NCBI RefSeq assembly: GCF_000024365.1
Contig: NC_013235.1
Location: forward strand, 744,001-808,000
Direction of reading: 5' to 3'
DNA: 64,000 nt
Source: Nakamurella multipartita DSM 44233
GTDB lineage: Bacteria; Actinomycetota; Actinomycetes; Mycobacteriales; Nakamurellaceae
The notes under the pieces are model-generated. The model saw nothing but the letters and a program-made list of their open reading frames with translations. It searched no databases and was not told the origin of the DNA. Each line of letters opens with the position of its first letter. Within the stretch, counting starts at the first letter, position 1. A program made the position numbers and the translations under genes. This document shows, piece after piece, positions 5,617 to 8,998 of the stretch.

Positions 5617-6261
5617 ATGACGTCAACCCTCGATCGCAAACGAATTCGCAAGGACCCGGCGACCCGCCGGGCGGAGATCGTCGCCGCCGCCGGCACGATC
5701 GCGCTGGCCGAGGGGCTGGAAAGTGTGACGCTGCGCCGGGTGGCCGACGACCTGGCCGTGCGACCCGGGCTGATCAGTCACTACTTCCCCTCGGCCGACG
5801 ACCTGGTGGCCGAGGCTTACGGCAGCGCGGCGGGGGCGGAACTGGACATCCTGATGCCGGCGGCCGATCGGGACGAGTCGCCGACGGTCCGGCTGGGCCG
5901 GTTCTTCAGCCGGACCATGCTCGCGCCCTACGACGAGATGAGCCGGCTCTGGGTCAACGTCCGGCACCTGGCCCGCTACCGACCGCTGCTGGCCGAGCGG
6001 GTGGCGCAGCAGGAGACGGCCTGGCGGGACCGGTTGGGCGGTCTGATCGCCGACGGCATCGCGGCCGGCGAGTTCACCACCGACGACCCGGAGGTCGTGG
6101 TGATGATGATCCTGGTCGTGCTGGACGGGTTGAGCGCGCACGTCAACACCGGCACGATCCAGCGGCCGGAAAGGGTGCTCACCATGCATGCCGCCCTGGC
6201 CGAACGCGAGCTCGGGCTGGCACCGGGCACGCTCGCCCGGGGCGGTGCTCTTCCCGGCTGA
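5617..6261 (+). CDS. TetR-family transcriptional repressor
   Basis: A 214-aa TetR regulator. The N-terminal helix-turn-helix covers about residues 12-60 (TRRAEIVAAAGTIALAEGLESVTLRRVADDLAVRPGLISHYF, read in parts); the C-terminal ligand domain is typical in length and resembles BetI/RutR-type regulators. ATG 5617 is chosen over the in-frame ATG 5608 because a TTGCTT-N17-TAGCAT promoter ends seven bases before it, giving a leaderless mRNA. It is divergent from the NCS1 permease with two matching palindromes between them, so the permease substrate (a nucleobase or hydantoin) is the likely inducer class. The ligand itself is unknown. Confidence 0.88.
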   Translation: MTSTLDRKRIRKDPATRRAEIVAAAGTIALAEGLESVTLRRVADDLAVRPGLISHYFPSADDLVAEAYGSAAGAELDILMPAADRDESPTVRLGRFFSRTMLAPYDEMSRLWVNVRHLARYRPLLAERVAQQETAWRDRLGGLIADGIAAGEFTTDDPEVVVMMILVVLDGLSAHVNTGTIQRPERVLTMHAALAERELGLAPGTLARGGALPG

Positions 6262-6279
6262 CCTCCGGCCGGTTGTTCC

Positions 6280-6346
6280 GGGGTTCGCTGATCTTTCCCG
6301 CGCGGGGAGCCCGGGATCCTGGTTTTGGCGCGGCTTTGATCAGCGA
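6280..6346. repeat. REP-like palindromic repeat, copy 1
   Basis: A 64-bp unit (6280-6343) recurs at 6363-6426 with two C/T differences. Its ends are inverted: TCGCTGATC (6285-6293) pairs with GATCAGCGA (6338-6346), and the interior contains smaller GC palindromes. It is an intergenic REP-like hairpin element downstream of the TetR gene. Confidence 0.8.
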
Positions 6347-6362
6347 TGTCTGGGGGCGTGCT

Positions 6363-6426
6363 GGGGTTCGCTGATCTTTCCCGCGTGGGGAGCCCGGGAT
6401 TCTGGTTTTGGCGCGGCTTTGATCAG
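6363..6426. repeat. REP-like palindromic repeat, copy 2, interrupted by the IS
   Basis: The left end GGTTCGCTGATC (6365-6376) should be answered by GATCAGCGAACC. GATCAG is present at 6421-6426, but the missing CGAACC lies at 8143-8148, directly after the IS110 element. Removing 6427-8142 restores a perfect 12-bp inverted end. Confidence 0.75.
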
Positions 6427-6439
6427 TCACCCTGTCCCT

Positions 6440-6662
6440 TCCGGTGACGCCACGACGGCGTGAAAATGGGTGGTGGGTTGCCTGTCGACGCCGATTCGTT
6501 CGCTTGAGCTTCGAGCCCGTTGATCAGTCTGGCGCCGGGGCCCGACCTTGACGGGTCACGCACTGTTGCTTCGAGCACGCCGGTCAGATTTTCGGTTCCC
6601 GACCGAGGCCCCCGGGCAGCCCGCCGTGGCGGTGGTGCACCTCAGGGAAGGAGCGACGCGGT
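6440..6662 (+). ncRNA. candidate bridge RNA (seekRNA) of the IS110 element
   Basis: IS110 elements encode a non-coding RNA next to the transposase whose two loops pair with target and donor DNA. Here two segments exactly 60 nt apart share the layout guide-CT, GCTTCGAGC, guide-AG. Loop 1: GTTCG-CT (6498-6504), GCTTCGAGC (6508-6516), TTGATC-AG (6520-6527). Loop 2: CT (6563-6564), GCTTCGAGC (6568-6576), CCGGTC-AG (6580-6587). TTGATCAG equals the left target flank (6419-6426), GTTCGCT is complementary to the right flank (8141-8147), and CCGGTCAG equals the right element end (8135-8142). The fourth guide (before CT 6563) shows no clear match to the left element end. A small hairpin TCGGT/ACCGA lies at about 6592-6606. 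RNA ends are unknown. Confidence 0.55.
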
Positions 6663-8063
6663 GTGATGACCAAACAGGTCGAGGAGATCCTCGACGAACC
6701 CCATGAACAGATCGTGCAGCGGGTCTGCGCGATCGACGTGGGCAAGGACTCGGGCACAGTCTGCGTTCGCGTACCAGCCGCGTCCGGGACGGGTCGGCGA
6801 GTGAGCAAAGTCTGGGACGTCCCGGCCCGAACCAGAGCGGTCCTGGGCCTGGCCGCACAGCTGTCAGACCAGGGCATCGAGAAGGTGACCCTGGAATCGA
6901 CCTCGGACTACTGGCGGATCTGGTTCTATCTGCTGGAAGCTCATGGCCTGGACGTGCAGTTGGTCAATGCCCGCGATGTCAAGAACGTCCCCGGTCGCCC
7001 CAAAACGGACAAGCTGGACAGTGTGTGGTTGGCCAAGCTCACCGAGAAGGGGCTGTTGCGTCCATCGTTCGTGCCATCAGCGCAGGTCCGGCAGTTGCGC
7101 GACTACACCCGGATGCGGGCCGATCTGACCGGCGACCGGACCAGGTACTGGCAACGGCTGGAGAAGCTGCTGGAGGACGCCCTGATCAAGGTCACCTCCG
7201 TGGCGAGCAGGATCGACACCCTGTCCGTCCGGGACATGATTGAGGCCCTGATCGCGGGCCAGCGGGACCCGCGGGTTCTGGCCGGCATGGCCCGCGGCCG
7301 GATGCGGCTCAAGCACGCCGACCTGGTCGAGTCGCTGACCGGTCAGTTCGACGATCATCACGCCGAGCTGGCCCGGATGCTGCTGCATCAGATCGACACG
7401 CTGACCGATCAGATCGACGTCCTGACCGCACGCATCGAGGCACTCCTGGCCAGGTTGCCGGCCGGTAACACCCCCGATCCGGACCGCCCCGCACCGGATG
7501 GCCAAACTCGGCCCGGTACGAGGGCGAACGCACCCGCCGACGAGGCGGCCCAGCGCCGGACACCGCCGACGGCCGCAGACATGATCAAGATCCTGGACCA
7601 GATACCCGGGATCGGCCCAAGCAACGCACAGGTCATCATCGCCGAGATCGGGCTGGACATGAGCCGGTTCCCGACCGCTGGCCATCTGGTGTCCTGGACC
7701 CGGCTGTGCCCCCGCACGATCCAGTCCGGGAAACGATCAACAACCGGTAAGACCGGCAAGGGCAACCGTTACCTGCGCGCCGTGCTCGGTGAAGCGGCCG
7801 CGACCGGCGGCAAGACCCAAACCTTCCTGGGAGAACGCTATCGACGCCTGATCAAACGCCGCGGCAAACTCAAAACGATCGTCGCCATCGCCCGATCCAT
7901 CCTTGTCATCATCTGGCACCTGCTCGCCAACCCCGGCACGACCTTCCACGACCTCGGCGTCGACTTCAACGACCAACGCATCGACATCGGACGCCGAACC
8001 CGTAACCACGTCCGGCAACTCGAAGCCCTCGGCTTCAACGTCACCCTGACCGCGGCCGCCTAA
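6663..8063 (+). CDS. IS110-family transposase (DEDD recombinase)
   Basis: A 466-aa intact IS110 transposase. The N-terminal RuvC-like DEDD domain shows CAIDVGKDSG (Asp about 25), the LES segment, and KTDKLDSVWLAKL. A helical region with an extra Pro/Gly-rich linker (about 265-300) follows. The C-terminal Transposase_20 domain has IPGIGPSNAQVIIAEIG and LVSWTRLCP...SGKRSTTGKTGKGNRYLR, containing the candidate catalytic serine. The start is GTG 6663 or ATG 6666, after AAGGAG (6648-6653). IS110 enzymes recombine through a circular intermediate guided by an element-encoded RNA. No internal stop, so possibly active. Confidence 0.92.
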   Translation: MMTKQVEEILDEPHEQIVQRVCAIDVGKDSGTVCVRVPAASGTGRRVSKVWDVPARTRAVLGLAAQLSDQGIEKVTLESTSDYWRIWFYLLEAHGLDVQLVNARDVKNVPGRPKTDKLDSVWLAKLTEKGLLRPSFVPSAQVRQLRDYTRMRADLTGDRTRYWQRLEKLLEDALIKVTSVASRIDTLSVRDMIEALIAGQRDPRVLAGMARGRMRLKHADLVESLTGQFDDHHAELARMLLHQIDTLTDQIDVLTARIEALLARLPAGNTPDPDRPAPDGQTRPGTRANAPADEAAQRRTPPTAADMIKILDQIPGIGPSNAQVIIAEIGLDMSRFPTAGHLVSWTRLCPRTIQSGKRSTTGKTGKGNRYLRAVLGEAAATGGKTQTFLGERYRRLIKRRGKLKTIVAIARSILVIIWHLLANPGTTFHDLGVDFNDQRIDIGRRTRNHVRQLEALGFNVTLTAAA

Positions 8064-8227
8064 ACCCGACACCCACTCAACCCGATGGTCACCACCACGG
8101 GTCACCCTTGGCTGCCCAACGGCACGTTGATTTTCCGGTCAGCGAACCAACCGGGTCACGCCCTGGCCGGGTCATGCCGTCGCCGGTGCCGGGCGGGGCC
8201 GCTGGCTCGAAGTGTGAGGATCGAGCG

Positions 8228-8998
8228 ATGCTGATCGCTGCGCTGGGCAGTTCGTTCGCGGCCGGACCGACCCTGGAACCGGTGGCCGAACGGGCGGCCA
8301 TGCGGTCGGCGGTCAACTACCCGCATCGGTTGGCCCGGGCGCTGGGAGCCGACCTGGTCGACCTGAGCGTGTCCGGGGCGACCACCGCGACGATCCTGGA
8401 CGACGCGCAGACGATCGCGCCGACGGTGCAGTTCCCGCCGCAGATCGACGGGCTGCCCGCGGACGCCGACCTGGTGACGATCACCGCCGGGGGCAACGAC
8501 CTGCGTTACATCGGTTCCCTGCTGGCCACCGCCTGGCGGCGGCACGATCCGACCGCGCCGATGGCCACCCTGCTCGGGCCGCAGTACCCGCGCATCCCGC
8601 CGGCCACCGAGGACGCGGTCGGCGCGGTGGCCCACGGCCTGGCCCGGATCGTCGACGCGGCCCGGGCCCGGGCGCCGCGCGCGCGGGTCGTGCTGGTCGA
8701 CTACCTGACCGTCCTGGATCCGGGGTCGCGCTCGGCCGTCGTCGACTTCGCCGACGACGAGCTGGCGGCCTTCCGGGCCCTTCAGGACGGGCTCGAGCGG
8801 GCCTACCGGTCCGCGGCGGCCCGGTCGTCGGCCGAGTTGCTCGCGGTGTCCGAACTCAGCCGCGGCCACGGGCTGGGGTCGGCGCAACCCTGGATCGGCG
8901 ATTTCGTGCCCGATGCCCGCCGAACGGCCGGCTCGTTCCACCCGACGGCGGCCGGCATGGCGGCGGTGGCCGACCTGCTGGACATGTCGCTGCGTTGA
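8228..8998 (+). CDS. SGNH/GDSL-type hydrolase
   Basis: A 256-aa SGNH hydrolase, probably an esterase or lipase. Block I reads LGSSFAAGP instead of the classical GDS, keeping the nucleophilic Ser near residue 8. Block III is ITAGGNDLRY (Gly, Asn oxyanion) and block V is SFHPTAAG with the catalytic His. The Asp two or three residues before the His is not obvious. No signal peptide is seen, so it should be cytoplasmic. ATG 8228 has GAGGA seven bases upstream. It lies directly after the IS110 element; the remaining half of the interrupted palindrome is in its leader. Confidence 0.85.
   Translation: MLIAALGSSFAAGPTLEPVAERAAMRSAVNYPHRLARALGADLVDLSVSGATTATILDDAQTIAPTVQFPPQIDGLPADADLVTITAGGNDLRYIGSLLATAWRRHDPTAPMATLLGPQYPRIPPATEDAVGAVAHGLARIVDAARARAPRARVVLVDYLTVLDPGSRSAVVDFADDELAAFRALQDGLERAYRSAAARSSAELLAVSELSRGHGLGSAQPWIGDFVPDARRTAGSFHPTAAGMAAVADLLDMSLR

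Follow-up and report, generated by a model that had tools for sequence, protein, structure and literature searches.

In IS621, according to the text of the two papers describing it (PMC11208160, PMC11208158), the gene of the bridge RNA lies upstream of the recombinase gene, the RNA has two guide loops whose guides have a CT/AG core in common, and the recombinase is of the DEDD plus serine type. The handshake bases come after the 3' target guide and form pairs with the donor (text of PMC11208158). A further paper deals, in its text, with the seekRNAs of IS1111-type elements such as IS4321, ISEc11 and ISPa11, whose RNA gene is downstream, and with ISEc21, an IS110-type element with an upstream RNA gene and two target-matching segments (PMC11187229). 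Namely, the top-strand match comes first in the IS1111-type RNAs and the order is the reverse in ISEc21; the text ties this order to family and generalises that of ISEc21 to the IS110 type (PMC11187229). Bridge RNAs are under development for use in DNA insertion, and what has been published on how their guides are to be read comes from few elements.

The element described here was found in a window of 64,000 nucleotides, i.e. positions 744,001-808,000 of the 6,060,298-bp single-contig genome of Nakamurella multipartita; unless the genome is named, positions are those of the window, and all features lie on its plus strand. It is an IS110-type insertion sequence of 1716 bp (6427..8142, one copy of the AG core counted), as delimited by inspection of its ends, and its gene (6663..8063) encodes an IS110-family RNA-guided recombinase of 466 amino acids, as judged from domains, an NCBIfam model and catalytic columns. 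In particular, the protein contains PF01548 (86 bits) and PF02371 (69 bits), scores 239 bits against the NCBIfam model 'IS110 family RNA-guided transposase' (NF033542, cut-off 140), and has D25, E78, D116, D119 and S355 in the DEDD and serine columns of an alignment with IS621, whose catalytic residues we take to be D11, E60, D102, D105 and S241. A phmmer sequence search of solved structures matched only ISCro4 and IS621, weakly and chiefly over residues 306-420, the best stretch with IS621 spanning no more than residues 306-418; the IS621 recombinase is also the shorter of the two, with 326 amino acids. Judging from sequence, we consider it very probable that the element belongs to the IS110 family, is mobilised through recombination guided by a bridge RNA and is mirrored about its core; its left end may be recognised mainly without a guide.

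The putative bridge RNA gene (6475..6623) lies upstream of the recombinase gene, as it does in IS621, and its limits are those of a covariance-model match rather than transcript-mapped ends. The model was built by a motif scan of homologous loci, which led to an alignment of 24 RNAs; the window RNA scores 140 bits against it, being itself one of the 24 rows. With this model, 91 matches were found across 99 sources and then 9 across 9 further sources, the latter being left out of the guide counts, and positive genomes numbered 14 of 396 in a phylum sample, 3 of 17 in a family sample and 20 of 394 in a class sample, the home genome being within each. When folded alone, the window RNA is not more stable than its shuffles, 141 of 200 of which did as well (z 0.53), and alignment support for the structure is weak, with double changes in 5 of 19 pairs. 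Since the single-RNA fold has no excess stability, the structure rests on comparison. A search of the region 5800-8300 gave no Rfam match up to an E value of 0.1.

The layout of the RNA around its cores resembles that of IS621, i.e. a 5' guide ending in CT, a 3' guide running into AG, and handshake bases next to it. In loop 1, the 5' guide GTTCG-CT (6498..6504) is the reverse complement of the right junction AG-CGAAC (8141-8147), a match that is also borne out by covariation, and the 3' guide TTGATC-AG (6520..6527) equals the left flank (6419-6426), with whose other strand it would pair. In loop 2, the 3' guide CCGGTC-AG (6580..6587) equals the right end (8135-8142), as is further supported by a comparison of own with other ends in homologues, and the 5' side TCACGCA-CT (6556..6564) occupies the position at which the fourth (donor) guide is expected. 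The original prediction, which was made from the sequence of the window, had pointed out the three word matches to the left flank, the right flank and the right end, and all three are exact in the window sequence; it had overlooked the handshake pair TC (6528..6529) directly after TTGATC-AG, which equals the two bases with which the left end begins, a match supported by agreement among homologues. It had also remarked that CT (6503-6504 and 6563-6564), GCTTCGAGC (6508-6516 and 6568-6576) and AG (6526-6527 and 6586-6587) recur 60 nt apart. The coordinates are right, but among 80 homologous RNAs, GCTTCGAGC lies in loop 1 of a single RNA, in loop 2 of 24 and in both loops of one, and a register of 60 nt as a family rule must be rejected, the core-to-core distance being 54-61 nt in 78 of the 80 and exactly 60 in 11. 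That part of the argument is, in other words, largely coincidental and a peculiarity of the window copy. The core itself is the same in both loops in 72 of the 80 homologues (69 AG, 3 TG) and differs between them in 8, of which at least one, L011, is out of register.

That the loop words are beyond chance follows from the fact that in homologues they change with the insertion site, which is how the original prediction had proposed that its guides be checked. For this comparison, 80 distinct RNAs were kept of the 91, the other 11 being dropped for having fewer than 60 nt upstream or more than 95% identity; L011, from family F450, stayed among them though its loop 1 is out of register. For the 3' target guide, a 10-mer consisting of six guide bases, the core and the two following bases was sought in the at most 160 bases upstream, with the RNA's own upstream sequence compared to those of the others. 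The mean match was 8.51 of 10 in own and 6.31 in others' sequences, and none of 20,000 shuffles, which ignore relatedness, reached the observed sum of 681 (shuffle maximum 536); the six guide bases alone gave a sum of 371 against a shuffle maximum of 263. There are 71 different six-base guide words among the 80 RNAs, 48 of the 80 match at 9 or more of the 10 positions, and 68 of the 80 have a best site with 7 or more of the 10 positions matching at a distance of 40-65 bases upstream from the RNA. A position map of the left junction in these 68 shows z-scores of 10-12 at guide positions -5 to -1, of 8-10 at the core and of 8-10 at the next two bases, values that are inflated and partly circular because the junctions were placed with the same guides.

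The own-versus-other tests, i.e. those of the 3' target guide, the 3' donor guide and the handshake, avoid this circularity, while the lines for the 3' guide, the handshake and the donor that come from placed junctions share it in part. The test of the 5' target guide is free of it as well, because the right ends were placed by loop 2. Namely, 33 of the 80 elements are without a clear right end and L011 was removed from the remaining 47, and in the resulting 46 elements the 5' target guide matches the reverse complement of the right flank 120 times over 5 positions, where 75 +/- 6.4 would be expected; a total as high was seen in none of 20,000 shuffles, which again ignore relatedness. When the 5' guide was instead compared with the left flank and the 3' guide with the right flank, the same 46 elements gave no signal. 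The 3' donor guide matches its own right end at a mean of 7.58 of 8 against 6.51 for others (38 of the 80 RNAs), with a sum of 288 and a maximum of 264 in 5,000 shuffles. As for the handshake, a set of 53 of the 80 elements was used that have a unique best site of at least 7 of 8 and junctions placed without the handshake bases; in 47 of the 53, both bases after the loop-1 core equal the first two of the left end (shuffle mean 11, maximum 23). The corresponding bases of loop 2 agree with the right flank in 29 cases where 21 are expected, a slight excess that 212 of 20,000 shuffles equal. The earlier impression of a bridge RNA with three readable guides that converge on one core is sustained.

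The two target guides do not seem to weigh equally. In 14 copies from Kibdelosporangium (L095-L108), the left flank reads GCGTT-AG or GCATT-AG and the right flanks have no common word (AACAC in 3 of the 14), so that the 5' guide seems unused there; what is more, a copy in the home genome, L031, is inserted at CTTGATC-AG/CACCAT, with the 5' guide ignored. These sites together suggest that the 3' guide with the core dominates the reading of the target. In this the window element is unlike IS621: the target is read mainly through the 3' guide, i.e. some 5 nt and the core, and for its RNA-bearing end no donor guide was found.

This last point concerns the fourth guide, for which the original prediction could see no clear match. 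None was found in the window, and across 46 homologues, compared in three registers and at three lengths, complementarity between the left end and the 5' side of loop 2 is not in excess; likewise, in the left-junction map (68 RNAs), positions 6556-6564 against the left end nowhere exceed a z of 4.2. Agreement in register 0 falls below that of nearly all shuffles, a candidate signal that we rejected and read as relatedness instead. Of the four guides of the IS621 type, two per loop, only three were thus found, and another kind of contact is possible. The left end (LE, 6427..6468) begins with TC, has a hairpin ACGCC-5-GGCGT at 6447-6461 and then GAAAATG, and the right end (8130..8142) reads ATTTTCCGGTC-AG, its ATTTTC (8130-8135) being inverted relative to GAAAAT (6462-6467). 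GA[A/G]AA occurs in 61 of 68 left ends, and a 4-bp hairpin stands directly before it in 41 of the 68. From these features we infer that the left end may be marked mainly by protein or by DNA structure (hairpin plus GAAAAT) and not by a fourth guide. The apparent natural lack of one guide, together with a handshake agreement of 47 in 53, allows the role of the fourth guide to be tested directly.

The home genome also contains seven identical 89-bp mini-elements (at genome positions 1694661, 2252398, 2264368, 2319382, 2460680, 5307359 and 5307532, L034 and L035 among them), each of them made of the two ends of the element: the initial 42 bases of the left end are kept at 93% identity, hairpin and GAAAATG included, and so are the final 13 of the right end. 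They are a non-autonomous IS110 derivative, and as they contain neither the RNA loops nor the gene, they have probably been moved in trans. Six of the seven lie at TTTGATC-AG/CGAA and one at TTTCATC-AG/CGAG, and this presence in the same target class suggests mobilisation in trans as well. The mini-elements thereby hint at what minimal ends may be. A separate observation concerns L111, where about 160 bases lie between an outer boundary that two copies have in common and the guide-matched left end, flanked by the near-perfect inverted repeat TGACTAATTCC / GGAATTACTCA.

Turning to the order of the guides, in the window RNA it is the 3' sides of the loops that equal the left flank and the right end, and not the 5' sides as in the IS621 type. 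The order is thus inverted relative to the element when compared with the text of the IS621 papers, and the reversal suggested in the original prediction holds against two actual IS621 copies. Namely, L285 has ATCAGGC-CT as its left flank at the RNA-bearing end, close to the ATCGGGC-CT on the 5' side of its loop 1, and L203, which is inserted in the RNA gene of another copy, has ATCGGGC-CT as its left flank; the IS621 authors describe the same guide order (text of PMC11208160). The order found here is instead that of the IS1111-type seekRNA elements, with the right-flank complement first and the left-flank match second (text of PMC11187229), and in the window RNA, too, the top-strand match lies 5' of the bottom-strand match. 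That said, the RNA gene of IS1111 elements is downstream (text of PMC11187229) and that of the window is upstream. The window clade consequently has the polarity of IS1111 together with an RNA placed as in IS110, and is an exception to the ISEc21 order that the same text generalises to the IS110 type. Of the variant architecture that had been suspected, the reversed order in itself is not new, being published for IS1111 elements with downstream RNA (text of PMC11187229), and it is the combination with an upstream RNA that stands: within the running texts of PMC11208160, PMC11208158, PMC11187229 and PMC12045711, as distinct from figures (such as Fig. 6d with ISAar29 and ISHne5), preprints and supplements, an IS1111 order with upstream RNA is not described. 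The window clade breaks the generalisation of a fixed IS110-type order, and the position of the RNA is by itself insufficient for reading guides.

We lean, if only slightly, towards a third bridge-RNA layout, in which IS1111-like polarity would be combined with an RNA at the IS110 end and with three guides, the RNA-bearing end, unread by any guide before strand exchange, would be accepted by core, handshake and a conserved hairpin, and the RNA gene would have changed ends within the clade with its polarity kept, being downstream in Bacteroidota and upstream in Actinomycetota. A tree of recombinases (56 rows; 4 of 64 loci were without an open frame, and 5 of 61 rows, including L137 and L138, were omitted) assigns the window element to a 36-row group on a long stem with support 100/99, separate from the remaining IS110 families in these genomes. 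This clade includes loci from Prevotella (L130), Olivibacter (L132) and Desulfopila (L135), where the RNA match of the last is partial and insignificant (E 0.15), as well as ISArsp3 from a plasmid of Arthrobacter sp. FB24 (L224), which has an upstream RNA according to the model (36 bits). In five Bacteroidota loci (L130, L132, L133, L137 and L138), the RNA lies downstream of the gene and has the polarity of the window; of the five, only L130 and L132 are in the tree, both in the window clade, and L131, whose sequence is cut off downstream, is not counted with them. The RNAs of these loci were located by words picked by eye and comprise just two different guide words: the 3' guide, core and two following bases equal the left flank at 9 or 10 of 10 positions (ATTATG-AA-AC in four, TAGAGG-AA-AC in Olivibacter), and the right end matches the 3' donor guide at 7 or 8 of 8, although in two of the five another site scores 7 of 8 as well. 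Downstream in Bacteroidota and upstream in the window, the RNA gene appears to occupy different ends within one clade at constant polarity. In four of the Bacteroidota loci (L130, L133, L137 and L138), the insertion is at TATG-AA, a sequence that resembles gene start codons (ATG-AA...).

The same relatives can be read in another way, namely that the window element belongs to the IS1111 group and that its RNA gene shifted from the downstream to the upstream end. We regard this as possible, albeit rather doubtful. The five Bacteroidota loci with downstream RNA and the same polarity, two of them in the window clade, fit such a shift, and so does IS4321 on R751, inspected by eye with an insertion point that we set from a presumed target. 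There, AAAACGG-AA complements the right flank TT-CCGTTTT and precedes TATA-TT, which resembles the left flank TTTA-TT (by eye), and the RNA is downstream, so that the guide order is the same as in the window. The tree, too, joins the clade with IS4321, but weakly, at a support of 96/63 that was flagged as a meeting of long branches, and the deep position relative to IS1111 is unsettled. What is more, the subterminal inverted repeats of 7-17 bp of IS1111 were not seen on reading the window ends, where there is only the 6-bp GAAAAT/ATTTTC at unequal distances, and the recombinase has 466 amino acids against 334 in IS4321, which has T where the window protein has its catalytic S. Should the third layout be true, the clade would record the step that separates IS110 from IS1111. 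With RNA genes at one end in some members and at the other end in others, the clade allows the IS110/IS1111 split to be tested.

It is considerably less likely that we are dealing with an ordinary IS621-like element and that the reversal is nothing but the choice of the top strand. If the strand with CT is read, the target GGTTCG-CT-GATCAA does give the exact IS621 order, the 5' guide standing ahead of CT and the complementary 3' guide behind it, with the handshake in the IS621 place, but the gene and the RNA leave no choice of strand, and at the RNA-bearing end it is the 5' side that matches the left flank in IS621 and the 3' side in the window. Moreover, three families with upstream RNA in the same genome show the IS621 donor order, as judged by word match: the right-end word precedes the left-end complement in F416 (ACAGAGGG, CAGTGACCG), F443 (ACAGGGCT, CAGTGAGCG) and F395 (ATAGGAGC, TCACTGTC), and G007_355 from another genome has the same order (ATAGGAG, then CACTGAG). 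This comparison used common words of at least 7 bases with no shuffle control, and chance words occur in the same lists. In G004_422, G002_401 and G002_363, the right-end word is present and the left end gives only low-complexity words or none, and a search for clean ends in the G007_426 and G019 sets found none. An inverted order in all IS110 families of the home genome was hence rejected, and both polarities seem to occur side by side in this genome. Given the fixed strand and these controls, the chemistry may be that of IS621, with the layout of the element mirrored, which also makes the RNA-bearing end the 'left donor' rather than the right one. On a side note, these three families (loci L001-L010 and L017-L024) are multi-copy, with open frames of 416, 443 and 395 amino acids and complements of 8-9 nt to the left end, and L011-L015 (F450, home genome) form a related family in which, by eye, the core is AT, the target is the palindromic GTTG-AT-CAAC and the loop-2 motif is the same.

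Finally, it is highly improbable that the words are relics, with the 5' region being a promoter or mRNA leader and the identity to the flanks coming from self-insertion or sequence capture: self-insertion into an RNA gene does occur (Kibdelosporangium L097, IS621 copy L203), but it cannot account for 71 different guide words that follow their own sites, for a loop-1 5' side complementary to the right flank or for a second loop with a match to the right end, and this reading is largely refuted by covariation. In L097 and in the E. coli IS621 copy L203, the left flank is the RNA gene of another copy, broken at its target guide; as the guide is itself a target sequence, self-insertion can break RNA genes.

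Returning to the mirrored, bridge-RNA-guided element that we favour, the following sequence of events can be envisaged. The recombinase would bring together the target and a circle junction (right end-AG-left end). By sequence, loop 1 can read the target through its 5' part, on the right flank's coding strand, and through its 3' part, on the opposite strand of the left flank. The right end of the element can be read by loop 2 with its 3' part, and the core CT/AG is common to both loops. The DEDD/serine site may then cut beside the shared dinucleotide, the strands would be exchanged, and the strand that meets loop 1 after the exchange would be checked by the handshake bases TC against the left end. 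The words, the way they covary, the agreement of the handshake bases and the polarity with its controls are observed in sequence, and transcription of this RNA, its binding by the recombinase, strand exchange and recognition of the left end are steps that we infer.

The target region (6275..6426) consists of two REP-like repeat copies spaced by 83 bp, whose ends are the inverted repeats TCGCTGATC / GATCAGCGA; both copies lie just left of the element, which is inserted in the right arm of the second one. Target duplication is limited to the common core, as in IS110: there is one AG per junction (left copy at 6425..6426, CT on the other strand, from sequence and end inspection), and empty sites read TTTGATCAGCGAACC. 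This empty site, which is part of REP-like palindromic repeats, is found elsewhere in the home genome 14 times exactly and 25 times at no more than one mismatch, and the reversed control pattern gave 0 matches there. Ten full-length copies and one split copy of this element were found in the stretches of the home genome examined, the covariance model finds 11 copies of its RNA in the entire genome, and PF01548 has 41 matches in it. The left ends of the 11 copies read TTTGATC-AG in nine, CTTGATC-AG in one and, in a tandem dimer, the right end of the neighbour in one; the right ends read AG-CGAACC in eight, AG-CGAAGC in one and AG-CACCAT in one, and the remaining one is that of the tandem.

Among elements of other genomes, those of Nocardia (L074), Nonomuraea (L075) and Streptomyces (L126) have the guide CAAAAA-AG in common. 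The flank TTGAAAAA-AG was read directly in L075 and L126, and the left flank of L074 is cut off; the right flanks of the three look similar, which suggests one conserved gene as a target. In the home genome, L037 (genome positions about 4,880,200-4,883,640) is a tandem pair of copies with one common AG, so that the chromosome there contains a junction of right end, AG and left end that resembles that of a circle. In L033 (genome positions about 1,403,800-1,415,500), two full-length copies lie in opposite orientation, and a third is in halves about 3.3 kb apart, with other DNA between them.
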